Shown: positions 6,201 to 23,449 of the stretch, one piece after another | Layout of the letters: every line of letters starts with the position of its first letter | How positions within the stretch are numbered: position 1 is the first letter of the stretch | Assembly: GCA_028713325.1 (NCBI GenBank) | Contig: JAQTON010000001.1 | Span: forward strand, 199,454 to 263,453 | Length of the DNA: 64,000 bases | Direction of reading: 5' to 3' | DNA from: Candidatus Altimarinota bacterium | GTDB lineage: Bacteria; Patescibacteriota; Gracilibacteria; BD1-5; UBA2023 | Program-made: the position numbers and the translations under genes | Notes under the pieces: model-generated | Databases searched by the model: none | What the model saw: only the letters and a program-made list of their open reading frames with translations | What the model was told of the DNA's origin: nothing

Positions 6201-6290
6201 TTGACAAAAACGACTCTTATATGCTATTATTTAATTGCGATAAGATAATAGACCAACGACTAGGAGGTTTTTCATATAAGAGTCTTTTTT
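6201..6290. promoter_or_regulatory. Promoter overlapped by a 12-bp inverted repeat
   Basis: TTGACA (6201-6206) and TATTAT (6225-6230) are separated by 18 bp. The arm GACTCTTATATG (6212-6223), between the two boxes, is perfectly complementary to CATATAAGAGTC (6273-6284), which is followed by six T. An inner pair CTATTAT/ATAATAG lies in the loop. It may be an operator, an attenuator or a bidirectional terminator at the element end. A Shine-Dalgarno-like AGGAGG at 6262 has no start codon at normal distance. Confidence 0.5.
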
Positions 6291-6315
6291 AGCTAATCAC
6301 TAACTAAGACCTTTT

Positions 6316-6525
6316 ATGGGAGCAATTATCAAGCTCACAGGTCTTAGTTTCTCTGAAATTGCTGATGTAATACAATGGGGAAGTTTTCTGGCAGACCCAA
6401 GCAATAAAACAGTGTTAAGCTGTTGTATTGTGTCAATCGTATTATTACTTTACAAAAACAAAGAAGCGATACGAAGATATATTATTCAGTGATTGGCATT
6501 GTTGAGTATATATCTTTGGTTGTAA
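6316..6525 (+). CDS. Small membrane protein of unknown function
   Basis: A 69-aa protein containing one in-frame TGA (Gly). It begins MGAIIKLTGLSFSEIADVIQ and has one clear hydrophobic helix (about residues 33-48, CIVSIVLLLY) with a second hydrophobic stretch at the C-terminus (LALLSIYLWL), so it is probably an integral membrane protein with two short spans. It is the first gene inside the left end of the element, preceded by a promoter and inverted repeat and followed by a hairpin terminator at 6542-6584. No family is recognised. Small membrane proteins of this type occur as toxins, holin-like proteins or defence effectors, but nothing here decides between these. Confidence 0.5.
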
Positions 6526-6766: not shown

Positions 6767-7297
6767 TTAAATATATCTTATTGTAATATTGATTTTTCAC
6801 TTTAATTCTTTGCTTATTTTTTGCCAAAAACCCATTCAATATACTGATGGCTCAACTATTATCTTATTGATGTTATAATGCTTACACAACTCTATTATGC
6901 TTAATTTCCCTAATCATTTCTCAATAGAGATCATTTTATCAATAAAAATACTTTTTCATTTCTCTAACTGCTTTTTGTTAACTTTAAAAAATACTTTATT
7001 TTTTCAATCTACAACTCATTTTATATAAATCTCATGATTATCAGATTTATCAATTTCTGTTATATAGGCTAACCTATACAAAAAACTACCTTTTGATTTT
7101 GATAATTTTATAAGTAAAGCCGGTAGGCTGATTATTTTAGATAAATAATTACGAAAATAAAATCATTTAAAGGGCGTGATTTCTTCCATTCATTTTTTGT
7201 AATTCTCATCCTTCGTACTAAAATATACATCCAAAATATTTTTTGCATCATTTATATTAATTTCCTCCTCTTTAAAGGTCATCTTTATATTTTCCAT
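6767..7297 (-). CDS. Orphan protein downstream of ietS, hidden by TGA codons
   Basis: With TGA as Gly this frame is open for 176 codons from ATG 7297 to TAA; with the standard code it is broken by about ten TGA codons and leaves no long ORF. The protein is rich in Lys, Ile and Asn, starts MENIKMTFKEEEININDAKN and ends KGKINITIRYI. There is no signal peptide, membrane span or motif I recognise. It follows ietS after 80 bp on the same strand and is followed by a terminator (6681-6709), so it is probably the last gene of the ietA-ietS transcript. A third, accessory component of that system is possible but unproven. Confidence 0.6.
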
Positions 7298-7377
7298 AAT
7301 TCTGTTTAAAGGGGCTGTTAATTCATAATTACAAATTTACTCCATAGGAGTTCTCACCATATAAAAAACAGGCTTTA

Positions 7378-9882
7378 TTAAAAAAGGCTTTCAATTTCAG
7401 TTTGGACTTGATTGACTTCTATCATTTGTTCATAAATTTGTATTGTTCCATCAAGTGATTCGAAGCTTACTGCAATTGCATACGGATAATCATTATCCGT
7501 ATCTTTCTCCCACCCGTTATGACCAATAACTCAAATAAAGAATGATTCAGGTAAATCATAAGCATTAATGATAGTCCAATCTTTCTGTGTGGCACTATTA
7601 CTTCTACTTATCTTGGCAACTTTACCATGTCTTTTATTATCTTGAATAATCCATTTGAAGCTATCAGTTCTTTGGCTGGATAAAGTATCCTCCATGGGAT
7701 CGTCAGTAGTAATAATTGGTTCAGACTCTTGCTTTTGTCATTCTTGTATGACTCTTGATCGGAATTCTTCAATAGTTTCTCATGGTTTGGATGAAATCCA
7801 ACTCATCCATGTAGATAGGTAAGATTTTGTACCTTTCCGAGTTCTTCGAGATTTGGATTTATATACCAATGTTACTTCGATTAAAACCTGAGCACTCATA
7901 CTTGGTCATCGAATTTCTACAGGAACATGAACAGCGTAGATATTGGCCTGTTTACCACTGATCTTCTTCGTATCATCTATGAAAGTGATTCTGTTAGAAT
8001 TATTCTGCAAGGCACGATTAATGTTTGGTAATCAATATCCATAGCGAGCGAGCTTATTGGCATTTTCATTTTTATCTTCGGTAATTTCAATCTCACTTGG
8101 CCATCTCGCAGACTGAATAAGTAGGGCTTTGTAAAAGAGAGTTGATTTTTCAGGGAAAGAATTTTGTATTTGAGCAAGTATATTGCATACTTTAGGTGCA
8201 GAGAATGAGGTACCAATTGAGTCTTTTGAATAAGCCTTTCCACCAGTGAGTGTGGAATTAGTGGTTTCAATCGATGTCGGTTCTTTCTGTCGCAAACCAT
8301 AAGGGGTGATTTTATCTACAACATATTCACCACCATATTCAACTAATTCTGGTTTGATGCTATCCCATATTCAAAATCATGATCTTGAGAAAGAAGATAT
8401 ATGATTTGCGGGAGATATTGATCTTTCATCCACTGTTTCAAAACCATTTGGGCATATAGAACCAACTGTTACTCCAAAAAGACTCTGTCATGGATTAGCA
8501 ATCCTGCATTCATTTTTATGTAAATATTCAGGATAGGATGATAAATGATGTCTTATCTGGGATCGGTCAAGATTTCAAGATGAAATAACGAAAAGTAAAT
8601 CATTCTCGTAACTTAATCTATCAATTTCAGCACTCCAAGAAGAAACATGAGTAGTTCGGCAGGCAGTACTGCTGTTCACGGATAAGTTAAATAAACGAGT
8701 GGAAGGTTTGTAAAAATCATCAGTTACTTGCTTCATTATATTCCCTATCATTACCCCCTTCGGGATTTTTCTGTCGTGGTCCAAAATTCTTGCATTTTCT
8801 ATCCAACAATTAGCCTTGTATGATCCTGTTCTTGGTATTCATGAAGGGTATATTACAACTCAGCCCACGCTGGTACCATGTCAATTAGCATCTCAAACAT
8901 TGGTATCATGTGGCAAATAACTACGTGAGTTAGCTCAACGAACCATGGAACTTAGGAGAATGTGATTTTCTTGAATTCCACTATCCATAACACATACTCC
9001 TGCGTTATCAGGCTCTGGCGATTCAAGGGTAATTAGCCCAATATCCTCTTCATTTTGAGATATGGTTGATATTGTATCAATATCCTCTTGTAGCTTTATC
9101 TCAAAGACAAAGGGGAAGATAATTGCAATATTCTTTAATCACTTACCGTTGATGTTTATAAAGTAGCAGAAACTATCTTCGAAATTAATTTGGTCGGTAA
9201 TAATTCCATTATACGCATTAACAATGGCTTCCAGTTGAGATTCGCGATCTATTTCTTTTTGGTAATTATCGTTTTCCCATTGTCTCATCTTTACTTCAAA
9301 ATCTATATCAGTATCACGAACTTTTCTTTTTGGGATAGGGATCTTTTGACATGCCACTCCAACCTCAATTTCGTATACCTCATCTTCGTTAATATTGTCC
9401 CATATCGCAGATAAATCTGCAGAAAGGATATGCTCCAGTCGCCATTGAATTCAACTGTCAATTTTCCATAACTGAGCAGCCTGATTTTTGGATCTTCAAT
9501 TTTGTTCCAGAAAATCAGTAATTTTCTTTTCTAATTTAGAAATGCTTATCGATGAACCTATGATATAACCATTTTCTTCTTCTGAAATGAGCTCGATCCC
9601 CAATCATTTTAATGCCTCTATTTTAATTTTTCATGTATCTATCTGTAAGAATAATGGTATCTCGTCATCATTTAAAATCCCTTCTAATCAACTTTCTTGA
9701 ACATATTCTGTCCAGGAGCTTTTTGCTTTATCTAAAGATTCCCTGAGTCCTCGTCCATGTCCAAATCTATTATTTAGATTGGCAATAGTCTGAGGATTTG
9801 TTTCAAATGGAATTCTTTTTATCTTACGCATTCACCCATGATTCACAGCAGAAAACTCTATGTGTTTGAAATCTCTTGGCAT
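7378..9882 (-). CDS. ietS: IetS-like subtilisin family (S8) serine protease
   Basis: 834 aa once about 21 in-frame TGA codons are read as Gly. The S8 triad is visible in order: Asp300 in VCVMDSG, His335 in NGHGTS, Ser559 in GTSFSAP, with the oxyanion Asn437 in SSGN. Several neighbouring glycines are TGA-encoded (NGHG, SSGN). The 290-residue N-terminal region and 250-residue C-terminal region are family-specific and unassigned. There is no signal peptide, so it acts in the cytoplasm. It starts 11 bp after the AAA+ ATPase gene. An AAA+ ATPase plus subtilisin-like protease is the described anti-phage pair IetAS, in which the ATPase is thought to control or feed the protease. Full catalytic residues argue that it is active. 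Confidence 0.8.
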
Positions 9883-9893
9883 GATGAAAAGAA

Positions 9894-10871
9894 TTATCGA
9901 GAAAGGTATTCATTAATTGCATACGTAAGGTGTTCCATGGTTACGGTATCACCACCCTCTAAAACAGCCGTTTTCCCAGCATTCTGAGTTAATTTTACAA
10001 TATCTGAGGCAGAAAATCCTACCAATTTTTTGGCGATAAGCTTAAAATTTATACTCTTGCTTACTTTCATGGCACTAAGTGTATTTTTGCAGAGCTGTGA
10101 AATTTCTTCTATTTCGGGTTTTTTAATTTCAATAACATCGTCAAATCGTCTAAACATTGCTGTATCAATAGAATCCTTTAAATTAGTTGTAGCGATTATA
10201 ATACCAGGAGAATCATAGTCCTCAAGCAAATTTAACATTACATTTACTATACGACTCATTTCACCAACATCCTGTTTATTATCCCGAGATTTTGCTATGA
10301 AATCGAATTCATCCAATAATAATACACATGGATATGTCTTGACTTGGTCAAAAACTTTTCGTAAATTAACTAAAGACTCGCCTAGAAAAGAGGATATTAT
10401 AACCTCAAAGTTTATTCTAAGAAATGGTAAGCCGATATCCCATGCCAATCTTTCTGCTCACATACTTTTTCCGCATCCAGGAGGTCAGTAAAACATGATC
10501 TTTTGTTTTGGTTTTAATCCACTTAGCAACAAGCGATCACGAGCAATATATTCCTTTTCGATACGTAAGAACTTCTTTTCAATCTCCTGAGATAAAATCA
10601 TATCATGTCGTAATTCCTCTCTATCAATCTTTGTTACTAGAGGAATATTGTTTCTAGAATTGAGAGGTGTGCTGAAAGTTAGTGGGTTTAATGAATGCTC
10701 TTCTCTTTTTGCTGTTACATTACTTTCCAAGATTTTCAATAATGAATTTGCAACATTCTTGTGTCATTTTTCTTTTTCTCTGGAGATTATATTATACGCA
10801 ATCTTAACAATATCATCCTCTGGTGATCACTTTATTGAGCGAAATAATCTCGTTAGGGTTGAAGTATCCAT
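9894..10871 (-). CDS. ietA: IetA-like AAA+ ATPase
   Basis: A 325-aa AAA+ protein. Walker A is GPPGCGKS at residues 129-136; its first Gly is a TGA codon. Walker B is LLLDEFDF near residues 184-191, followed by sensor-1 ATTN and an arginine-finger RRFD. The N-terminal 125 residues are a family-specific helical region and a C-terminal lid domain follows. The start ATG 10871 lies about 43 nt downstream of the predicted transcription start. Together with the S8 protease directly downstream it forms an IetAS defence pair. The closest fold is the FtsH/spastin-like AAA+ group, but there is no membrane span and no fused protease domain, so a housekeeping FtsH role is unlikely. Confidence 0.8.
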
Positions 10872-10920
10872 AAGATTGGAATTTATCCAGATAGTTTAAA
10901 GAAAACAAAAAATCGCCTCC

Positions 10921-10948
10921 ATTATATTAAGAAAGTTGAATTTGTAAA
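10921..10948 (-). promoter_or_regulatory. Promoter of the ietAS operon
   Basis: Minus strand TTTACA, 16-bp spacer, perfect TATAAT. The predicted transcript starts near 10914, giving a leader of about 43 nt before ietA. GGAGG lies just past the -10 box, too far from the start codon to be its ribosome-binding site. Confidence 0.65.
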
Positions 10949-11049
10949 ACTCATATTTCTTTTACTTGCTTAAAAAGCTTCTCCAAAAAAATCCTGTTAT
11001 AGAACACGAAAAAATAATACGAAAAAAGAAGGCAAAATAATCTTTTGGT

Positions 11050-12135
11050 CTACAGCTCCATTTTCTCTCCATTCTTCCTCATTATATCCTTTGTCTTTTC
11101 CATAAGAATATACTCGCTGTCGATGCCCCGAAGTTGTCCACTGAGGATTCAAAGTCGATTTTGCAATCTTTCTCCGTTCGCCATCTCCCAGTTCGTATTC
11201 TCGAGCAGAAGTTTGAGCTTTGCTCGGAATATCTTCGTGATTTTATAACGATCTTTTTCTCCTGTTTGATCCATGACAGAGAAATGGACTCGAATATCCG
11301 TCGAAGTATCTGGTTTTTCGAGCTTCAGACCGATGTATCCTTCTTTTGAGAGCTCTTCATCAAGGTATTTCTGCAAGATACCCACATTCATTCTTTTTAC
11401 TTGCGAAAACTTATCATAGAGTGGTTTTTGTTTCTTTTTCTGTTCTGAAATATCCAGTATTCTTCATATATCTTCATATAAATCCACAAACCACTGAAAC
11501 TGTTTCTCTGCTTTTTCCTTTGAGTAGCAAAACCGAGCTCTATCCTTCTCAAACTCAATGTCTAGTTCTTTTGGTGAGGATGACAGATCAATCTCTTCCT
11601 CGTCGTGACAGCGACAATTCTTGCAGAAAATAAAAACATGGAATGAATGTTCTCGAAGTTCTACATAAAGAGCCTCCGAATCAGCTTTGCAATTAGGACA
11701 TTTCTGTATCTTATATTCAATACTTTCTCCATTATCGTATATAGCCTTATATTTCACGCATTTATCACATCGAAACACGAATAATACATGAGTCTCAAGT
11801 TTCTCTTTGATCAGTGTCTTTATAGTCTTAGCGAAAAACCGTGTGGGCTTTCAACATTTATCACAACAAACTTTTTTGGGAATGAGAGTACTTTTGAGTA
11901 ATTCATCCTTCCTCCTATCTGAATCCATCCACCAACCGATTGTTTTTTCTCTATCTCGTCATAAAATCGAGGCTTCTTGTGCAATAAAAAACTGATCGAT
12001 ATTACTTGTAACAAGTCTCTTGCCAACATACTCAGGAGGCTTGTCACGATACTCTTTTTCTATCTTTCTACAAGCATCAACAACTCGGTGATCGTAGAGA
12101 TCCTGGTAATAATACTCTTCTTTTAAGTATCACAT
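11050..12135 (-). CDS. Multi-zinc-ribbon protein, third gene of the Type III R-M operon
   Basis: 361 aa (TGA = Gly), from ATG 12135 to TAG 11050. The central part holds a string of cysteine pairs, CCDKC, CDKC, CPNC and CKNC, which look like two zinc ribbons of the kind used for nucleic-acid binding. The C-terminal half is charged and probably helical. It begins 30 bp after the stop of res and reads in the same direction, so it is probably co-transcribed with mod and res. No standard Type III system needs a third subunit. It may be a regulator or target adaptor, or unrelated cargo. Function not recognised. Confidence 0.6.
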
Positions 12136-12165
12136 AGTAGTGTAATAAGAAAAGATAAATCGAGA

Positions 12166-14430
12166 TTACATTCTCTCCCATCCGCTCATATTATCCACTC
12201 AGTAATCGTCTTGAATGGATCGATAGAATGTGGGATTTGTTTCTCACTCGACTCGGATAAAGCCACAAATAGCCTTTTTTCATTGTGCTTTTAATTCTTC
12301 TGTATATTGAGCAAATGGGACATGTTTTGGACGGTCTTTTTCGAGAGTAAAACCATCTTTTGGATCGAATATACCGATGGTCCCATCTGTATATTGGACA
12401 ACGAAATCAGGAAAGAAATTCTGACTGTCCCCATTGGAATCTTTATAGATAAGGGAAAAGAATAGCTCTGACTTCACTCCGTTTCTATACCACCAGAGAA
12501 TATCTGAACTCTTCTCAAGATATTCCTCGATAAAGAGTTTTTCTCACTTCGAGAGTTTCCCAGTATAAAATGGCTCGAGAATGTTTTTGGTATATTTTAC
12601 TTCTATACTGTCTTCAGGAAATGCCGTAATAGTAGGAATACTCCAATCTCGGGAAATAATCTGAGTTTTCCGCTTGTCCTCAACCTCAGCTCTACGAACA
12701 GGAAGATATATCTCCTTTGCTTTTGTGAGAACATCCATGAAGAATTCCTTGTTTGAGAGAATGAGGCACTGGAAATAATACCGAGACGTTCCACGACCGA
12801 AAAAGTGTTCCTCGAGAGTTATGTAGAGAGCCTCTATAATCGCCTTGTAAGAACGAGCGATATTCGTGAACTGAGGACGAACCTGTTCACGACAAAACAC
12901 ATCGAATGCGAGCTTCACGAGTTCTTCCTCGGTCTTGGTCTCTATGGTTGTATTTGAATAAATCGCTTCGCCCGTATGGTGATCTATATCCACGAGTATT
13001 TTCCCATCAGTGATGAGATTATTTCGGATCATGACATTGTCCGTTTTGACTCACATTTCTTGGAGTTTCTTCATATTTGCAGGAAGCATTGCTATACTGT
13101 TTGAACCAATATGAGAGAGAAATGATTCAGTGAGGATGCGATAAAAAGAGAATCCGAGATCGTTGTACTCTGTACGGCGGAGGAAGGTGCTTGGAAGAGA
13201 GATATTTTCGTACACTTCTTTCCTCTTCGAGAATTTATCCTTGATGAGATTTTTCGCCATCTCGTGTATACCGATTTTCGCCCGTTCGAGATCCGTGTAA
13301 ACATAGGCAACATCGAGAATATGCTCGTTATAGTGCTTTTGTTCTGGCATACGAAGTATTCGTCCAACGGTCTGTATCTCGAAAGTGATAGATCCAATCT
13401 CACGAAACATCACGAGAATCTGTGCTCGGGGACAGTCCCACCCTGTCGCTATCGCCTGTTTGAATATGAGAACTTCTACGGGACTTTCATACGACTCTAT
13501 GCTATCAAGATTTTCTTTCTCATCCGAGAGCCAGATGGCAAGTTTCTTATTTGCGAGACTGATACCAAAATCCGTATCCAAAACCTGTTTTGTACGTTCC
13601 AGCTTGGTTTTATCCAACTCGCTCGTAGTCTTTGATTCACTCGGAAGCTGTATGAGAACCAGTGGTCGAACGCTCGATCCGATTTCTTCATACTTTGCCC
13701 GAAGCTCAGAGGCTTTCTTCAGGGCTTCATCAATAATGAATTTATCTGTCTCGCTCACATCTTTCGTATCTCATAATCCAGGATTGATGAGTACCTCCTT
13801 TTTTATCATCCCTGCTTCGATAACTTCCTCGATTTTCGTCTCTACTTTTGCATCGTAACCGACACTGTCTGGAGTAGCGGATACTTCTATCTGAAGCTTC
13901 GGCTTGATATAGTTCATAATGAGTTCCTGAGCTTTCGGAGTAGCGAGAGATCTATGACTCTCATCGACGATGAGGATAACCTCTCTTCCTGCCTCATGGG
14001 TATTTGCAAGATAGGTGGGGAGATTCTCATCTCGTTCGTTATCTTTCATCGCCAATACTTTCCACTCTCCTGTTGCACGATCGATGGATCGTATGGATTC
14101 CCAATTGATGAAAAGAATCTCATTTTTCTTCAGTTCTCGGTCGGTTATATCTGAAAGCTCAGAGAAATGAAGCGGAGAGCCTGCAAGATTTCGCTCGAAA
14201 CTTCTCTTGGATTGCCGAGAGAGATCATTGACAGAGATCCATACAAGGGCAAATTCTCGATCCTGTGGAGTCTCGGCAAGCCTTCGGAGGTACTCCTGCA
14301 TCATAATCGTCTTCCCACTCCCTGTTGGGGCTTTAAACACGATAGATTTAGCACCTTCATCGGATATGAGTCGGAGAGTAGCGTTAAAAAGCTCCTGTAC
14401 GTGTTTATCTTGGTAATTTTTGAGAATCAT
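12166..14430 (-). CDS. res: Type III restriction enzyme helicase/nuclease subunit
   Basis: 754 aa joined across four TGA codons. The N-terminal SF2 helicase part has Walker A APTGSGKT (residues 34-41), VDESH (Walker B/motif II), SATP (motif III) and QTVGRILRMPE (motif VI). The C-terminal part carries FFPDFVVQY followed by FDPKDG, the PD-(D/E)xK-type nuclease arrangement of Type III Res proteins. The start ATG lies 12 bp after the methyltransferase stop, so the two are translationally close. Res cuts DNA only in complex with Mod, after ATP-driven communication between head-to-head sites. All core motifs are present, so the enzyme looks intact. Confidence 0.85.
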
Positions 14431-14442
14431 AAAAGAGAAAGA

Positions 14443-16185
14443 TTAAAAGCCAAAAATCTTTTTGTAGGTTTCGAGTATCTCATCGGGGATAGTTTCGATA
14501 CGGAGTCTGTTGGAGAAATGAGCAAGTTCTTCCTGAAAAATCTCCATCCCCATAGAAAAGATATATGCAACGATAGGTTTAGTGGTGGTATCTGCAAGCT
14601 TTTGAAGCTTGATTATCTCATAGGGATGATACAGAACCGCAAGGATAGCTTCCTTGCTTTCAAAGACCTGAAAATATTCGTTTTCATTTTCAACCTGAAG
14701 GCGATTAAAACACGACTCTCGTATCTGAAGCATCTCGGTGCATCTTCCCATGAATTTTTTGCGAAGATCATCAATGGATTTTTCCATGCCAATAAAATCC
14801 GTTCGATAATAGCGGAGGTTTGCAGGAATCCCTGGAACATCTCCGTATCCCTGAATAACATTATGGATGCGAGGATAGGTCACCTCCTCGGCTATCTTGT
14901 TTTCATTGTTGGTACAGAGGATGAATTGTCTGTTTCATCCATCTTCTTTGTTAAGTTCAAGAACAGCGTGTCAGGTGGTTCAGGATCAGGCGAAGAAGTC
15001 GAGGATGACAGCATTTTCCTTATTGTGTATAACCGCCTTTATGCAGTCTTCCACAGCGTAGAGTGATTTTGGAAATGGAAATTTGTCAGAAATAATTTTG
15101 CTCAGTAGTTTCGATCAATAAATATTCGCATAATATTTCTTATCATCCCAAACTGTTCGATATGTAAATTCACTTTTTCTTCTCATTATTACATACTCTC
15201 AATCAATCTCTTTAACAAAAAGTTGATTCAAATTTTCTTGGACGCTATTTCTACTGAAAACCCATTTTCGCTCAATTCAATGACTGTCAATAGGATATAT
15301 GTAAATTTCTCCATTTGACTTGATTATATTTCCAGACTGAGGATGGAACTCTATATCACAAACGTCTCAAACTCAGATTATTTGACTATCTTTTATGATA
15401 ATTGGATAAAAACAAGTTTTGGCTAGTTTTCTTGCCGATGTTCATCCCCAGTCTCTCAGGGGAGATACTAAATCCTTTTCTCTTATGGTACTACCAATAG
15501 ATTTTGTTCAACTTGGATATACAAAATAAGCAAATTCATGAGTATAAGAAAAATTCTTTCACTGAACTCCTGCAGGATTGTGAACTATTACGATACTGTC
15601 TATGTCATAATCAGTGAATATTTCCCTCAGAAGTAATCATAATGTTGCATGTTCATTTTCATCTATTGTACATATTAAAACTCATGTTTCTTTTAGTAAC
15701 TTTTTGGCCAAAAGAAGCCTTTTGTTCATCATACATAGCCATTTGCTATGGCGGAAAGTATCATTATTATCAACATAGTCGTTGTTATATTTCCAATCCC
15801 TAGAACCAGTATTATATGGAGGATCTATGTAGATTACGTCTACTTTCTTCTCGTGTGTATATGCAAGTACCGAGAGAGCATGATAATTATCTCATTCGAT
15901 AAGAATATTAGTGGGCCCGTTCGGATTTTCATTAATAGATTTTGTCTCATCTCCTATAAGGACTGGGAGTTCAGTTCTGCATCGTTCGACAACATCCTCC
16001 AGTTTGTCCTCCCAGACAAGACCATAACGTTTTGATTTCTTGAGTTTTTTTAGTTCATCTTCGAGATCTTTGATTTTTCGTATGTATACTGATTGTTTCT
16101 CAGCTTTCATAGACTCTATGAAAGACTTGAGATGATCTACTGTTTGTCATTGGATCTGATAGGTAGATTGTAGATTTTGGGACAT
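14443..16185 (-). CDS. mod: Type III DNA-methyltransferase (Mod) subunit
   Basis: 580 aa with about 16 TGA codons read as Gly. The motif order DPPYNTG (residue 121 on) then FFAGSGTTG (397-405) is that of beta-class N6-adenine methyltransferases such as Type III Mod. All three glycines GxGxxG in the SAM-binding motif after FFA are TGA codons, which is strong evidence for the code. A coiled-coil-like N-terminus (residues 20-60) precedes the catalytic part; residues 160-370 would contain the target-recognition domain. Mod methylates the recognition site and supplies specificity to Res, encoded 12 bp downstream. Its ATG directly abuts the T-run of a hairpin terminator, suggesting controlled expression. 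Confidence 0.88.
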
Positions 16186-16215
16186 AAAAAGGCGTCTTAT
16201 GGAAATAAGAACGCC
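16186..16215 (-). terminator. Terminator-like hairpin abutting the mod start codon
   Basis: On the minus strand GGCGTTCTTAT and ATAAGACGCC form a stem with a TTCC loop, followed by TTTTT and then immediately ATG of mod. This position allows either transcription attenuation or occlusion of the ribosome-binding region. Confidence 0.6.
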
Positions 16216-16238
16216 GAAATCTTTGTGATTTAGTAGTC

Positions 16239-16400
16239 AGTTAGCACAACAAAAGCGAACAGCATATGCGCCTTGGCCGTGCTAACTAAACCGTTTTTCT
16301 GTGTGTATCGAAATACGAACAGATGGACTTACCATATGCTGTTCGCAATAGCTTCGATACACACAAAATGTGTACACAAAAAAATCGGGGTTTAGTTAGC
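16239..16400. promoter_or_regulatory. Interlaced inverted repeats between mod and the 456-aa gene
   Basis: Four perfect arm pairs lie in 162 bp: 16255-16268 with 16333-16346 (14 bp), 16300-16312 with 16353-16365 (13 bp), 16281-16292 with 16389-16400 (12 bp) and 16239-16247 with 16279-16287 (9 bp). On the minus (mod-sense) strand the arms occur in the order C D E D' C' E' F, so E-E' pairing is incompatible with C-C'/D-D', and F competes with C for C'. This fits an RNA switch ahead of the terminator at 16186-16215. No CDS is visible at 16216-16538. Confidence 0.65.
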
Positions 16401-16480
16401 CCGAGTACTATATATAAAAACAGATTGAATGCAAGATTCTTTTGATTTTAAGGCAAAAAAGATGGTAGATCGGAAAAGTC

Positions 16481-16507
16481 TTGCATTAAAGTGAAAGAGG
16501 ATATAAT
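16481..16507 (+). promoter_or_regulatory. Promoter of the 456-aa orphan gene
   Basis: TTGCAT (16481-16486) and a perfect TATAAT (16502-16507), spacer 15 bp, or 16 bp if CTTGCA is taken as the -35 box. The start codon is 31 bp downstream of the -10 box. Confidence 0.5.
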
Positions 16508-16538
16508 CGAGACATATTACTATGAAAATTAAAACATT

Positions 16539-17909
16539 ATGCTATTTAAACGTCCAAAAACAGAGTGTAAATTTAAACTGTATGAGGAGTATATCCCCGT
16601 AATACTGGATGTGGAGAACACAAAAGATAGAGATCTTTCGGACTATGAGGCGGTCTGGTATGAGATACTTCTCGATCCTATTTATTTTTGGTATTTAATG
16701 ATGATTCTTGAACTATATGAGGAGGATGAAGAAACTATAGAATTTTCATTGTCGCGTATAGGTGAAATTGGCAACTACGCTAAGACGGTAAACTCAAATG
16801 ATAATAAGGTAATAGAAAACAATGATTTAAAAGACTGGGATATCTGATGAGGAACATATGATATGATTCTTTTTCGTTTAATATATTTATCTGGAGCATT
16901 TCTTGCTTTTGATATAAAGTCAATAGAATTGATAGGGACGGCGAGTGAAATAGCAAAAGATATAATGAAAAAATCGTTAGTTTCAGGTGGAGAAAAGAGT
17001 GATATTGAGCTTGAATGGATATATTATATACTTTGAGTACTTAGATGAATAGAAGATAAACAATTCGATAAGTATTATAAAGTTAGATCTGTTCACGATT
17101 ACAAAAAAGCAAAAGAAAATAGCCTTAGTACACTCGATTCCTATACCATTTTTTCGAAAATCACTTGAGACAATAGGGATAAGAATGACTTTTGGGAAAT
17201 AATAAGTTTTTTATGAGAATATATGAAAGTGACTCTTGAGGTAGATAAAAAAAATATGGGTCAGCTTAGGGAATTTATAGATACCTCAGTTGAAGATATT
17301 ATGGATATGTCTCTCGATATACACTTTCTTCTCCGGAAATTTATCAAAATAGCGAAAGAATCAGAAATCATTGGATGGACGGTATTTATACCATTTTCAA
17401 AATGTATAGAAGCAGACTTTCCACTTTTGCAATTCATTTACTATCTTCAGAAGAATGAATGAGGTCACCTTATCTCATGGAACATAGAAGGAGATGTATG
17501 GGCAATATGAATTGGTGACCCAATAATTTCGCGTGCCTTGGGCATTAAAGGCTCTGATGATGATAAAATCGATACCTCTGAACTTATTTATAATGAAACA
17601 AAGGAACTTCTTTACTTTAAAAAGAAGCCTCTTCATCTTGGGGAAATGAATGAGACATTTGTAAAAGAATTTTTTGATTTATCTTTTGATCAAGATGCCG
17701 GTCTTAGTATAGAAGAACTTGTGGAGAGGTTGGAGCCAAATATTGAAAGTTTTACTCCTGAAAAAATCAAACAAGCTAAGAAGAGATTAAGTTATGATAG
17801 GGTTGATCTTTTGAATATAAAGATAACAAAACTTACATGACTCCCTAAATGTTTCAAGGTTATAAATAGTAAGATTAAGCTCTTGTTCCAAATTTCGGTC
17901 GAAAAATAG
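16539..17909 (+). CDS. Orphan 456-aa cytoplasmic protein of the element
   Basis: The frame runs from ATG 16539 to TAG 17907-17909 and is interrupted by about ten TGA codons, all read as Gly; four fragments seen with the standard code join exactly in one frame. The protein is acidic and helical, with stretches such as ILELYEEDEETIEFSLSRIGEIG and a Leu-rich middle, but has no signal peptide or long membrane span. I recognise no domain. It is divergent from the mod operon and shares the structured region 16186-16400 with it. It has its own promoter and a terminator at 17971-18008, so it is a separate transcription unit. It could be regulatory or a further defence cargo gene. Confidence 0.65.
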
Positions 17910-17970
17910 TCGAAAAGCAATCGAATCATATCGAATTTGAGGGATAATTATAGACAAATCAGCATTACAT

Positions 17971-18008
17971 TAGGCTTTATCACTGCGCGGTGGTAAAGCC
18001 TATTTTTT
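17971..18008 (+). terminator. Terminator after the 456-aa gene
   Basis: Stem TAGGCTTTA / TAAAGCCTA extended by TCAC/GTGG, loop TGCGCG, followed by TTTTTT. It separates the orphan gene from the replication module. Confidence 0.75.
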
Positions 18009-18023
18009 AATATCAAAATTACT

Positions 18024-18257
18024 ATGTCTAATTATTACTCTACAAGCGATCTCAACCTCGCTTCTGCCATTATTGTCTCTTGATACCAACTCAGTCATAT
18101 CCAGAAGGATAAAGGGAAGGGGTTGTTCTTCTTTGAACCATCCCATAAACTTGCGAAATTCACCGAAGATTACTTTCTTTGAAAGATTCGGCTCGATCCG
18201 ATGGAATATTCCGGTGCTATAAAAACACTGAAGAATTATCTCTATAACACTCCATAG
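18024..18257 (+). CDS. DUF5659-like small protein
   Basis: 77 aa, two TGA read as Gly. The opening YYSTSDLNLASAIIVSGYQL and the later FFFEPSHKLAKFTEDYF resemble the small DUF5659 proteins found in plasmids, phages and integrated elements of candidate-phyla bacteria. I made this link from memory of the family pattern, so it is tentative. It is the first gene of the replication module, followed after 4 bp by another small ORF and then by the primase-helicase. The function of the family is unknown; its constant position next to replication genes suggests a role in copy control or in template handling. Confidence 0.55.
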
Positions 18258-18261
18258 AACT

Positions 18262-18393
18262 ATGCTAACCCAGGACGAGGTGGTGTGATATCAGATGATA
18301 TACAAGAAGATTTACGGGGTAGAAATACCCAAAAGCGAAGCATACGAGCAAGGATTGAAACTTATCACTCTGCTTGAAGCTATTTTAAAATAA
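18262..18393 (+). CDS. Small hypothetical protein (43 aa)
   Basis: MLTQDEVVGYQMIYKKIYG and so on, with one TGA-Gly. It lies 4 bp after the DUF5659-like gene and 19 bp before the primase, in the same direction. The pattern YQMIYKKIYGVEIPKSEAYEQGLKLITLLEAI looks like one or two amphipathic helices. Small proteins of this shape accompany primases in many mobile elements, but no homologue is recognised. Coding is supported by tight packing and codon pattern rather than by a motif. Confidence 0.45.
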
Positions 18394-18412
18394 CCACTAA
18401 CTATAAATTTTT

Positions 18413-20545
18413 ATGAAAATTACTATTACAGAATATCTTTCCTCCAAAGGAATACAATTCTCAACTGCTTGAAAAGAACTTACTACACATTGTATTTTTA
18501 ATGACTGTGATGGAAATAGTCATGGGAAGGAAGCACACCTCTATATAGATAGTGAAACTGGATGTTATCAATGTAAAAAATGTCTGGAGCAGGGGAATAT
18601 CATCACGCTTATGAAACACTTCTGAGATGATCCGAAAGAGTATGAGATCGAAGGATATAATTCTCCCGAAAAAAAGGAATTAATTGACACGATAAAAAAG
18701 AGCATAACTATAACGGAAAAAGATGTAGAAAAATATCATAAGGCTCTTTCTACCAATATTCGAAATTACCTTAATGATCGAGGTATTTCAAACGAGACAA
18801 TCTCTGAGAGAAAGATTGGATATGGAAGCTTCTATGGGGCTAATTGGATTGTTATTCCGATTCGAGATTGTGATGGAAGTCTTCTCTTCTTTAAGCTTCG
18901 GAGAGATCCGTCAAAGCAAGAATGAAATAAATATATGTTTTTCCCAATTGGGGCCAGCGCGGTCCTTTACGGTTCGGAAAACCTATCGAATGGCGATGAT
19001 AGTATCGTTATCTGTGAAGGAGAATTCGATCAGATGATGCTTTTGCAACATGGAGTAACAGCAGTGACATCCACGGCATGAGCTGGTACATTTAAATCCG
19101 AATGGCTGGATGGATTCTGAAACTTCCAGAAAGTATATATTGCCTTCGATAATGATGATTCTGGAAAGAAGTGATCCGAGAGACTTTCTGGTATGATAAA
19201 GGCTCGTTATCCAGAAAAGGAAGTATATCTGACTTGCATTCCTGAGTCTTATGGAAAGGATATCACCGATTATTTCCAGAAAAAATGAACGGTCGATGAT
19301 CTCATGGGATTATATAGTGAGAGTGCTCGGGGTATAGATGTATCAAAATTCCCATCTTTAAAGTGAGAAGACATAATACAACTTTTGTGACTGACTATTA
19401 AGCATGATGACATAAACAAACTTGTTGTATTTCTTGCGATGCTCTCGGCATATACAGAGGATGCTCAGATAAATATTCTTCTCAATGCGCCATCCTCCTC
19501 GGGGAAGTCCTATATTCCTCTTGAGATAGCAAAACTCTTTCCAGAAGAAAGTGTAATGAAACTCCTTTATGTCTCTCAGAGTGCCTTCTTTCACGAGAAT
19601 GGAGAGTATGATAAAGAAAAGAATGAAAAACATATTCGCTTGGATCGGAAGATTATCATATTTATCGACCAACCAAGAACCGAACTTCTCGCAAGATTCC
19701 GCCCGCTTCTCTCTCACGATGAAAAAGTGATGATTTGCAAAATCACAGATAAGACATGACAATGAGGGAATAAGACTAAGAATATCGTGATTCATGGGTA
19801 TCCTGTAGCTATATTTTGTACCGCATCTACTGGACTCGATGAACAGGAAGCTACCCGTTTCTTATTACTCTCCCCAGAAACTCACAGTGAGAAGATTCAT
19901 GATACGATTCATTCGAAAATACAATCTGAATCCATAGAGAGCGAGTACCTCGAATCCATAGAAAATAATCCCGAAAGATTGCTCTTTAAGGAACGGATAG
20001 AGATGATAAAAGATGCCCGAATAGAATACATACGAATATCGAACTCTGATGAAGTGGAAAGACGTTTTTTGGAAGATAAAAAGTATCTCAAGCCAAGACA
20101 TCAAAGAGATGTGTGAAGATTTATGTCATTCATAAAAACATTCGCTCTTCTTAATCTCCCACATCGAAAGCGGGTTGGTAGTACTCTTTATACGGAGAAA
20201 GAAGATCTTGAGGAAGCCTGGAAAATATGGGAAAGTCTTGCGCCAGGTCAGGAGTATAATATCTCGCCCTATGCTATGCAGATTTACAAGGATGTATTTA
20301 TTCCGGCATACAAAGAATTCAATCAATCGAGAAAGATAGAGAAAGACCCTTTTGATAATGATGAATTAAAATGAGTTCCCCGCAGGTATATTCTCAAGAA
20401 ACATTCGGAAATATACGGTCGACCTCTCTCTGATGCTACTTGGAGACAAGAGATAGAGCCAACACTCGAGAATGCAGGGCTTATTACCAAGGAAACGATT
20501 GGGAAAACAATCTGTCTAAGCCCTGTTGAAGAGATGGAGATATAG
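18413..20545 (+). CDS. Mobile-element primase fused to a P-loop ATPase/helicase domain
   Basis: 710 aa joined across about 18 TGA codons. Domain order: an N-terminal CHC2-like zinc finger (residues about 24-62, HCIFNDCDG then CYQCKKC); a TOPRIM domain with VICEGEFDQ (catalytic Glu) near residue 200 and AFDNDDSGKKG (metal-binding Asp) near 245; then an ATPase domain with Walker A NAPSSSGKS near residue 360 and FIDQP as Walker B. This is the layout of primase-helicases of phages and plasmids, which lay down primers and unwind DNA at the element's own origin. It gives the element a replication capacity independent of host DnaG/DnaB. It is followed after 48 bp by an orphan gene. Confidence 0.75.
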
Positions 20546-20593
20546 TGAACAACATCGGGGTATAAATTTCATTATCATTAACTATATCATTTT

Positions 20594-21265
20594 ATGTCAA
20601 AGAAGATCAAAAAAGAGGTTATTCCAAAAGATAACAAAAAAGCTCTTATACTATCAGATCGAGCAAAGGAAGTAATCCAAAAACTGAAAGATCCGAGTGA
20701 ATTGAAAAGGATTATACAAAGCTATGGAAAATTTCCTGTAACACCAGAAGAAGGATATAAGAAATGAGCAGAACTACTGACAAAGTCTTTAGAATGAGGA
20801 AAACTTACAGAAGAAGAGAACAAGGAATTTACAAATATTGTTTTAGGAACAAACATTACCAAGAATCATCGTATGCTCTGAGAGGTTTCAATGGAAAACC
20901 AAGATAGAATGGCGACCATAGAAATGGCTGAAGATCTCATAGAAGAGTATGATTGTAAGACTACATCAGAACGGTCCTTATGTGAAATGGTAGTCAGTAG
21001 CTATGCGCAAGTATTAAAAATCAATCGCAAGATGAATAGCACTATAAATGCGGGTGAGTATCTATCCCATGAAAGAACTGCATATATTGGCGTTTTAAGT
21101 AAAGAGTTGGAAAGGGCAAATAGAAGTTATCTTTGTGCACTTAATACTCTTCGAGAGCTGAAGTCCCCGAACCTCAATATCCACATCAAAACCAAGACCG
21201 CTATTATCGGAACGAACCAACAATTTAATAATAATCTTCCTCCAAATGAAATCATTGCAGGTTAA
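20594..21265 (+). CDS. Hypothetical helical protein of the replication module
   Basis: 223 aa (three TGA = Gly) from ATG 20594. It is Lys/Glu-rich, predicted mainly helical, with a possible coiled coil around residues 140-185 (ERANRSYLCALNTLRELKSP) and no membrane span. The C-terminal HIKTKTAIIGTNQQFNNNLPP is a flexible tail. Its last 20 bp overlap the start of the following zinc-ribbon gene, which suggests coupled translation. No family recognised. The position between a primase and a recombinase suggests a role in packaging, replication or recombination control. Confidence 0.6.
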
Positions 21266-21575
21266 TTATTTCGGAAAAAATATAGTCCTTGAAAACTGTA
21301 AGAAAGTTAACATGAAGGATCTTCTAAAAACTGTTAAGGAACGCCTTAAGTATGAGCTTATGAGTGTTGAGGTGGAAGGGATAACTTTTATACAAACGAA
21401 GACAAATTATTGAGGCATACGATACTGGTTCTCGTGTCCAAAATGTGAGAGAAAAATTTCTGTACTCTATGAGAATCCAGCTACCCATACTCTCGAATGC
21501 AGGCTTTGTATCGGACTCAAGTACAAAAAACAGAGATTTAAGGGAATGATTGAAGAAAAGATTGGAAATCTTTAG
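21246..21575 (+). CDS. Small zinc-ribbon protein
   Basis: 109 aa, one TGA-Gly (NYGGIRYWF). It carries CPKC (near residue 66) and CRLC (near residue 91), a C4 zinc ribbon within a YWFSCPKCERKISVLY context that resembles DNA-binding ribbons of small transposon and phage proteins. The start ATG 21246 overlaps the previous gene by 20 bp; an internal ATG at about 21312 is an alternative. It is the last gene before the recombinase leader, so it may take part in recombination or in its regulation. Confidence 0.6.
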
Positions 21576-21590
21576 ATAAATCCATATAGT

Positions 21591-21716
21591 GTCCGTGCCA
21601 ACCTTTTACTATTGCAACCTTTTGAATCCAGAAATGGGTGATTGTCCGCTACATAGCATCTTCAAAAGATTGTTTATGTGGTAAAAGGTTTGGCGACCGG
21701 ACGATCACCCATTTTT
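21591..21716 (+). promoter_or_regulatory. Attenuator-like leader of the serine recombinase gene
   Basis: Two long arm pairs alternate in the order A B A' B'. A (GCCAACCTTTTAC, 21597-21609, extended upstream by GTCCG) pairs with 21681-21702. B (21632-21648) pairs with B' (21698-21714), which is followed by TTTTT and the start region. A' and B' share CGGAC (21698-21702), so the two pairings exclude each other: B-B' is a terminator and A-A' would be the antiterminator. An inner CTACATA/TATGTGG pair is also present. Confidence 0.65.
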
Positions 21717-21736
21717 ATATGCTTAAAATTATTACT

Positions 21737-23449
21737 ATGAACAATACACGTTTTGTGCTCTATGCACGCAAGTCTTCGGAAAGAGAAGATAGACAGATAC
21801 AATCGATTGATGATCAGATTAACTACTGGAACAAAAGAGCTAAAGAAGAGGGTATAGAGATTATCAAAATTTATACAGAAGAGAAATCAGCCAAAACTCC
21901 TGGACGAAGAGCTGAATTTTACACTATGTGTGACGATCTTGAAAAATGACACATAGACGGGGTTCTATGCTGGAAGCTTGATCGACTATCTCGTAATCCT
22001 GTGGATACGGGGAGGATTCAATATATGCTCCAAAGAACCAAGATTAAGCGGATAATTACGAGCGATCGTGTATATTATCCAGAAGATTCCTGACTTATAT
22101 TCAGCGTAGAAACAGGAATGGCGAATCAGTATATCTTAGACCTTTCCAAAAACTCGAAACGATGACTCCAAAGCAAGCTCGATAAGTGACACTTTCCTGG
22201 GATGGCCGTTCAATGATACCTGAATGATAGAATCAATAGAACGATAATCCCAGATCCAGAACGATTCAGTATGGTAAAGAAAATGTGGGAGATGCTTCTC
22301 TCGTGATGTTATTCGCCTCAGAAAATTCTCGAAACTGCGACACACGAATGGTGATATAGAAGCTTGAAGCGTAAAAAGACATGAGGAAAACCATTGGCCC
22401 TCTGCACACTGTATGATATATTCCGTAATCCATTTTATGCCGGGTATATGCGGTATAATGGACAACTGAAAAAATGAGATCATCATCCGATGATTACCTG
22501 GGAAGAGTTTCAAAAAGCTCAAAAGCTCTTTGGACATACAAAGTGAGAAACTGGTTCGATAAAAACAGAGAGACCGTCTATGCTTGAATTCTCATATACA
22601 TGAGTGGTGGTATGTGGGGAATGTGGATGTATGGTTACGGCAGAGAAGAAGACAAAGATACTACAAACAACTAAACAAGAAAAAAGCTACACATACTATC
22701 ACTGTACTCATAAGAAAAATTCCCCTACATTCCGATGTTCACAAACATGAGGAATTCCCGAGTGAGTTATGGAATCTCAGATTAAAGAGATTCTTGAGAG
22801 CATAGAAATTCATCCAGAGTACTTTGACTGGGTAAAAGAGGTTTTGTGAAGAAGATATAGTGAGGAGACCCAGGGGAGAGAATTAGTATTTGAGAGTGTG
22901 AATAAAGCGATAGAGAATGAGGAGAAGAAAAAGAATCGTCTCGTCAATATGAGGCTCAATGGAGAGTTTGACGATAATTATGCGGAGTATGAGCGACTTA
23001 AGAAAGAGATGGAAGAAGAATCTCAAAAGCTTCAGATTAGAAGGACTGAACTAGAAAGAGAATCTACAAACTGGACGGAGCTCATAGAGGACACTTTTGA
23101 TTTTGCAAAAATGGCAAGTGAGAAGTTCCAAAATGGGGATCTGGAAACAAAGAAACTTATTTTCCGATCATTGGGTTCGAACTGGACTTTAAAAGACGGA
23201 AAACTGCAAGCCAATCTGCATGATTGGTTTTTGCCGTTTAAAAACATGATAGATTTAGACTCTCCCGATTCCCGAAGGTTAGAACTGAACAAAAAACGCA
23301 CCAGCTTGCGGAAAGCTGATGCGTCTGATGATTGAATTCGACTATGGTGGCGAGGGGCAGAATTGAACTGCCGACACACGGCTTTTCAGGCCGCTGCTCT
23401 ACCACTGAGCTACCCCGCCGGGCGACAGTTATTATATGAAAAACTGTAG
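21737..23449 (+). CDS. Large serine recombinase (integrase) of the element
   Basis: With about 20 TGA codons as Gly the frame is open for 570 codons. The N-terminal resolvase domain has YARKSSE with catalytic Ser13, then the GVLCWKLDRLSRNP motif. A recombinase domain and a zinc ribbon (CGECGCM then HCTHKK and RCSQ) follow, then a coiled coil near residues 385-440. A start at ATG 21719 is also possible. Because TGA is not a stop here, the frame continues through the attachment site and antisense across the whole tRNA-Phe, ending at TAG 23447-23449; conserved protein ends near residue 530. It should catalyse integration into, and excision from, the tRNA. The C-terminal tail would change upon excision. 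Confidence 0.82.
23291..23323 (-). terminator. Terminator of tRNA-Phe, supplied by the element
   Basis: Minus strand CGCATCAGCTT / AAGCTGGTGCG (one G-U pair), loop TCCG, then TTTTTT. It starts 21 bp past the tRNA CCA and lies inside the 3' coding part of the recombinase gene. It functionally replaces the displaced terminator at 5985-6016. Confidence 0.75.
23344..23353. repeat. attR: right attachment-site repeat
   Basis: ATGGTGGCGA, identical to 6031-6040. It covers the CCA and the last acceptor-stem bases of tRNA-Phe; the element lies on the lower-coordinate side. Confidence 0.75.
23345..23419 (-). tRNA. tRNA-Phe(GAA)
   Basis: A complete cloverleaf on the minus strand: acceptor GGCGGGG/CCTCGCC with one G-U pair, D-arm GCTC-AGTGGTA-GAGC, anticodon loop CTGAAAA with anticodon GAA, T-arm with GTTCAAT, and encoded CCA. 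It is the integration target of the element. Confidence 0.92.

Follow-up and report, generated by a model that had tools for sequence, protein, structure and literature searches.

What is the role of the interlaced inverted repeats in front of mod, the methyltransferase gene of a type III restriction–modification (R–M) system in Candidatus Altimarinota bacterium (contig JAQTON010000001.1)? We considered this question in a 64 000-nt stretch of that contig, called the window; all positions given without a locus name are window positions. A first-pass annotation had described interlaced hairpins and a terminator abutting the mod start codon, and had compared them with an attenuator or a pseudoknot switch. 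Our answer is similar: the repeats belong to a structured leader RNA that would work as a cis-acting transcription attenuator, a reading to which we assign a probability of about two in three, with termination deduced from sequence.

A sensible reading of the window genes requires TGA to be translated as glycine (genetic code 25); the examined genes are continuous only in this code, and gene calls made with table 11 break both mod and res. The two genes are 12 bases apart, have a single leader in front of both and apparently form one operon:

12166..14430, minus strand: res, type III restriction subunit (PF04851, 1.2e-20 in Pfam; REase_III, 8.8e-20 in PADLOC)
14443..16185, minus strand: mod, type III N6/N4 adenine methyltransferase read in code 25 (PF01555, 1.3e-28 in Pfam; MTase_III, 4.8e-77 in PADLOC), the first gene behind the leader

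The operon lies in a genomic island (window 6767-23449) that also carries the following genes:

7378-9882: IetS defence homologue
9894-10871: IetA defence homologue
18413-20545: primase-like protein
21638-23449: serine recombinase, with a frame that overruns the tRNA-Phe gene
23345-23419, minus strand: tRNA-Phe gene, inside the serine recombinase frame

No direct repeat (att) of at least 14 bases to the tRNA region was found within the window. The tested proteins near the repeats included no relaxase, with the primase and the serine recombinase nearby; also, neither the plus-strand ORF 16539-17909 nor the operon genes had a match to a regulator family such as the helix-turn-helix C regulators. 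Two further groups of repeats were seen in the window. An inverted repeat of 22 nt (16425-16446 / 16469-16490, 77% complementary) overlaps the −35 region of mod and sits between mod and the plus-strand ORF at 16539. At about 6210-6370, a promoter-like TTGACA and nested inverted repeats (GACTCTTATATG/CATATAAGAGTC followed by a T-run; also ACTAAGACCT/AGGTCTTAGT) surround the ATG of a 69-aa ORF; this element was not among the matches to the leader family described below.

The mod leader runs from 16400 to 16186 on the minus strand (about 215 nt). On the gene-sense strand its order is F – C[E'] – D5'–E–D3' – terminator hairpin – U5 – AUG, with the following parts:

16407..16434, minus strand: promoter, −35 TTGCAT (16429-16434), 16-nt spacer, −10 TATAGT (16407-16412); exact pattern match and family conservation
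16375..16400, minus strand: F, predicted RNA 5' end (+1 = 16400); can pair with D5' or T5'
16353..16368, minus strand: 5' arm of the C stem, from the inverted-repeat search
16333..16346, minus strand: E', apical part of hairpin C, a 14-nt perfect complement of E; covaries in 52 leaders
16297..16312, minus strand: 3' arm of the C stem, from the inverted-repeat search
16278..16292, minus strand: D5', pairs with F or D3'; inverted-repeat search and family comparison
16255..16268, minus strand: E, located within the loop of hairpin D, partner of E'; family covariation
16239..16247, minus strand: D3', nearly identical to F, partner of D5'
16210..16227, minus strand: T5', 5' flank and 5' arm of the terminator hairpin, the alternative partner of F (antiterminator pairing)
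16186..16215, minus strand: terminator-like hairpin GGCGTTCTTATTTCCATAAGACGCC followed by U5, directly adjacent to the start codon; position conserved in nearly all of 52 leaders

Every arm listed in the first-pass annotation was recovered by the repeat search. Its C/C' correspond to D3'/D5' (16239-16247/16279-16287 in plus-strand coordinates) and its D/D' to an inner GCG/CGC stem; E/E' (16255-16268/16333-16346) are complementary at 14 of 14 positions, and F (16389-16403) is complementary to 16278-16292 at 14 of 15. Two pairings were absent from the earlier list: a long hairpin (16297-16312/16353-16368, 15 of 16 complementary) and a second, 18-nt pairing of F (16375-16392 with 16210-16227, 78% complementary) that overlaps the 5' arm of the terminator. 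All the arms and hairpins are thus present, except that the left arm of the apparent F hairpin (16401-16404) falls into the promoter and, given the predicted start at 16400, would not be transcribed. The terminator hairpin occupies 16191-16215; five U residues end at 16186 and the ATG of mod comes next, at 16185. Folding of the minus-strand leader, which the earlier annotation had suggested, gave −86.3 kcal/mol as compared with −49.0 ± 4.3 kcal/mol for 200 shuffles (z −8.6); the plus strand folds less strongly (z −6.3).

A strict consensus scan of the window copy listed neither a promoter nor a terminator, in our reading because the −35 box is TTGCAT and the terminator stem is bulged; the evidence for both elements is their conservation across the family. 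A search of Rfam at E ≤ 1 with the window region and 18 further leader loci gave no credible family. Reading of the leader sequences revealed no conserved leader peptide, with short frames in some leaders only.

Do similar leaders exist elsewhere? A DNA search led to a second locus in the same genome, with similarity confined to the terminator and the initial codons. On visual inspection, this locus has arms of different sequence in an unchanged order, in front of an EcoRI-type methylase. Searches with the promoter pattern and PF13651 together then brought up about 19 EcoRI-type methylase loci that have a leader, in two families of the order; two PF13651 loci of the order (L017 and L019) had none. 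L017 is free of TGA codons and may be a foreign contig. A covariance model, R1, that covers only the part from hairpin D to the AUG was run on 76 genomes of the order and produced 53 matches in 32 of them; a single genome had as many as ten matches, weak to strong, at E ≤ 0.5, and the genome of the window had three at E < 0.01. Six weak extra matches were inspected, and two of them (L122 and L126) lack the leader. In total, 52 leaders of the same layout were recovered from one order of code-25 Gracilibacteria.

A pattern of the D hairpin, run over 84 980 species genomes, matched 18 stretches, all of Gracilibacteria type (labelled Candidatus Gracilibacteria, Patescibacteria UBA7396 or uncultured bacterium); viral contigs had zero matches. 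In a 287-genome sample of the phylum only the genome of the window was hit, the other 286 having no match at E ≤ 0.001 with few candidates scored per genome. Exact DNA similarity between loci covers only the terminator foot or the promoter, therefore BLAST alone misses the family. These leaders of about 215 bases are an undescribed RNA family, found so far only in Gracilibacteria. Three leader-like copies were seen in one 28-kb contig (L099 and L103, contig DKNE01000021) before unrelated small accessory genes; the copy at about 807 of L099 is reduced to its 3' half.

The order F-C[E']-D5'-E-D3'-T-AUG is kept in all 52 leaders; arm sequences differ between loci while complementarity is kept. 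As a MAFFT alignment of whole leaders misplaces arms between alleles, we located the arms leader by leader through complementarity and tested pairing per locus rather than by column counts. The mean score of E':E was 36.0 for a leader's own arms vs 15.9 for shuffled arms. For F:D5', 346 of 396 positions beyond the common heptamer pair, as compared with 202 ± 10 when partners are permuted among loci; the changed pairs are at position 3 of F (C-G in 34, U-A in 10) and at positions 8-14. The leaders are phylogenetically related, so that pair counts are not independent events. The covariation in homologous leaders that the earlier annotation had put forward as a check is thus present, and it extends to mutually exclusive pairings.

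The mismatches tell on which strand selection acts. With G-U and A-C penalised alike, the G-U to A-C counts on the sense strand were 67:7 for E':E, 67:9 for F:D5' and 106:6 for D5':D3'. Under selection on double-stranded DNA, G-U and A-C would be equally likely, and a reading of the opposite strand would swap them. The target of selection is therefore the sense RNA or, in formal terms, single-stranded DNA of the same sense. F:D5' and D5':D3' share a core, and variation in both is G-U-biased; as judged from the sequences, selection also covers both members of this exclusive pair.

Both ends of the leader are in a fixed register. A TTGCAA-N16-TATACT-like promoter (TTGCNN-N16-TATANT) is situated 6-7 nt before F in nearly all of the 52 leaders, and therefore F is the predicted 5' end of the RNA. 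At the other end, a terminator hairpin with a U-run lies at most a few nucleotides before the ATG, again in nearly all leaders; the hairpins are weak and A/U-rich in three copies that precede pilin-like or accessory genes (L081, L083 and L084). In the genome of the window, rpsO has a promoter (L016:1501-1534) with the same TTGC-N16-CATATAGT-CTCGG pattern but no hairpins, so the pattern seems to be that of a strong promoter used generally in the lineage.

The pairing of F with the terminator foot, F:T5', is the weakest-supported of the helices. Its core is paired in 41-44 of 44 leaders: GCC in F meets GG in T5', and GCU mostly meets AG. The pairing is general over 7-8 nt only; beyond these, 99 positions pair vs 83 ± 5 with permuted partners, about 3 SD. 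It extends over 12-13 nt in L056, and in L124 GCCAAGA of F is matched by UCUUGGC of T5'. In most loci the overlap with the terminator stem is the first 2-3 nt. A pairing of D3' with T5' is possible in many loci; where the parts of F that pair with D5' and with the terminator differ (L002, L008, L014, L020, L026 and L056), the foot is matched by F and not by D3'.

In predicted energies, hairpin D with the terminator and hairpin D with F:T5' are isoenergetic: means over 47 leaders were −64.5 and −64.4 kcal/mol, and the window leader had −80.2 and −80.7 kcal/mol, respectively. The fold with F:D5' and the terminator is about 5 kcal/mol above D with the terminator, in a calculation that ignores the E':E pseudoknot. 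In this folding model, isoenergetic folds are as would be expected of a poised switch.

These sequence features are those of an attenuator: a promoter upstream of the leader and a gene start at its end, a hairpin and U-run before the start codon, an antiterminator that overlaps the stem, and a third strand exclusive with it. The exclusive pairings covary and the terminator hairpin stands at the start codon in nearly all 52 leaders, which supports well the attenuator or pseudoknot-switch reading of the first pass. One could picture the switch as follows. RNA polymerase would start at F, which would pair first with D5' (14-20 bp), while hairpin C carries E'. The emerging E could pair with E', and the emerging D3', as a near-copy of F, could displace F from D5'. 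The freed F would then pair with T5' and open the basal pairs of the terminator, leading to read-through into mod-res (ON). If D5' keeps hold of F, probably aided by the crossing E':E helix, the terminator would form and transcription would stop just before the start codon (OFF). Since E':E crosses F:D5', it would be a natural control point. Termination, the assignment of folds to ON and OFF and the role of E':E are what we infer; the exclusive covarying helices, their strand and the registers of promoter to F and terminator to AUG are read from the sequences themselves.

The same architecture could act on translation: the hairpin that abuts the AUG would occlude the ribosome, and F:T5' would relieve it by opening the hairpin base. 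The hairpin is indeed within a few nucleotides of the AUG in nearly all loci, with no Shine-Dalgarno sequence in between; however, occlusion does not need the U-run that follows the hairpins. We therefore regard control of translation instead of termination as unlikely.

A methyltransferase gene comes first behind 31 of the 52 leaders (EcoRI-type 19, N6/N4-type including type III Mod 9, C5-cytosine 3), a share that may be inflated as R1 was trained on EcoRI-type loci. Other leaders precede an HsdR-like (HsdR-type) gene (L052), a Tsp45I-type restriction enzyme followed by its methylase (L075), a gene with a weak HNH match (L082), N-methylated pilin-like proteins (L071 and L083) and an S74-domain protein (L081); several more precede exported or unknown proteins. 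L067, L078, L081 and L124 carry paralogous membrane-anchored proteins, each with its own leader and with a motif like AYTNLxTQxDGATITxxIWN; one of these paralogues has an S74 endosialidase-chaperone domain. The purpose suggested earlier, methylation ahead of restriction after transfer to a new host, finds no support here: mod and res are 12 bases apart behind one leader, whole operons stand behind leaders, a restriction gene comes first in two loci, and genes of pilin-like or exported proteins have the leader too.

Could the leader be a stand-alone small RNA with its own terminator, acting in trans (e.g. on other leader copies), with the gene read by leak? It has a defined promoter and terminator and occurs in several copies per genome; F of one copy is complementary to D5' or T5' of related copies, and L076 is followed by a 24-codon frame only. 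Still, nearly every copy is a few nucleotides before a start codon, a placement that makes sense only for a role in cis, and the arms of the three copies in the genome of the window differ from each other. We think such a role decidedly improbable.

Leaders recur as units. In two genomes of one genus, L076:431-651 and L080:3162-3387 are 94.7% identical with unrelated flanks, the homology starting at the predicted +1 and ending 15 nt past the ATG. Between L014, which precedes an EcoRI-type methylase, and L056, which precedes a type III Mod, 85% is shared, and this is limited to the interval −21 to +15. Conversely, closely similar starts are seen in the Mod proteins of the window and of L066, behind leaders whose arms differ. 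Thus, leaders and genes have been reassorted. One could speculate, tentatively and at rather long odds, that the leader is mobile, a reusable module that extends from the promoter to roughly codon five and is copied before unrelated accessory genes, uniting R–M systems, pilin-like adhesins and exported proteins under one RNA switch, possibly with terminated leaders of one locus acting on others.

Recurrence before unrelated genes, as well as the many inverted repeats beside an island with a primase and a serine recombinase, may suggest elements that work as DNA: protein operators, an oriT/ori or attC-like recombination hairpins. We hold this to be very improbable. Operators and oriT/ori, which the first pass had named as what could overturn its view, do not account for the G-U excess on the gene-sense strand, since double-stranded sites lack such asymmetry; the register to promoter and AUG is fixed, and the copies precede accessory genes of many kinds. 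An attC/integron reading, prompted by the recurring modules, was dropped on the sense-strand G-U bias and the conserved promoter. Least probable of all is a metabolite riboswitch (for S-adenosylmethionine, e.g., given the methyltransferases): a multi-helix pseudoknotted leader with an expression platform before methyltransferase genes would suit it, but alignment inspection places the conserved letters inside helices with no invariant unpaired ligand-binding core apparent, Rfam gives no match, and the target genes have no common pathway.

If the attenuator reading is true, this would be the first cis-acting attenuator RNA for R–M systems, as far as the reviews and literature searched show; it would also be a structured regulatory RNA family that Rfam lacks, from bacteria whose genetic code is reassigned. 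Methylases of several unrelated families, restriction enzymes and pilin-like proteins all have the leader in front of them, which suggests a shared regulon that would connect DNA defence with the cell surface in these bacteria of small genome size.

In attenuators of the trp and erm types, competing ordered segments decide whether an intrinsic terminator forms before the gene. On this general comparison, the Gracilibacteria leader is alike in having ordered competing pairings before a terminator; it differs in that no conserved leader peptide was seen, the RNA begins with the antiterminator strand, an extra helix (E':E) crosses the others, arm sequences vary by locus and the U-run touches the AUG. 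EAR and put are cis-acting pseudoknotted or antitermination RNAs. The leader resembles them, in general terms, as a structured RNA that may govern terminator read-through; unlike them, it has as antiterminator a strand that base-pairs with the foot of the terminator, and it has no Rfam match.

For R–M systems, two reviews describe regulation by C proteins, autorepression by the methylase, methylation of promoters and antisense RNAs, the latter transcribed from reverse promoters in EcoRI and Eco29kI (PMC3874152, PMC12707154). Term searches of both found no attenuator, leader or riboswitch control of R–M (PMC3874152, PMC12707154); a search of full-text literature for a link between R–M and attenuators, in open-access papers where absence is no proof of novelty, returned nothing relevant. 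The leader described here shares with the known cases its place before R–M genes, EcoRI-type methylases included, and, with the antisense cases, regulation based on RNA; unlike them, it would act in cis as the sense strand, through a terminator and purely intramolecular pairing.
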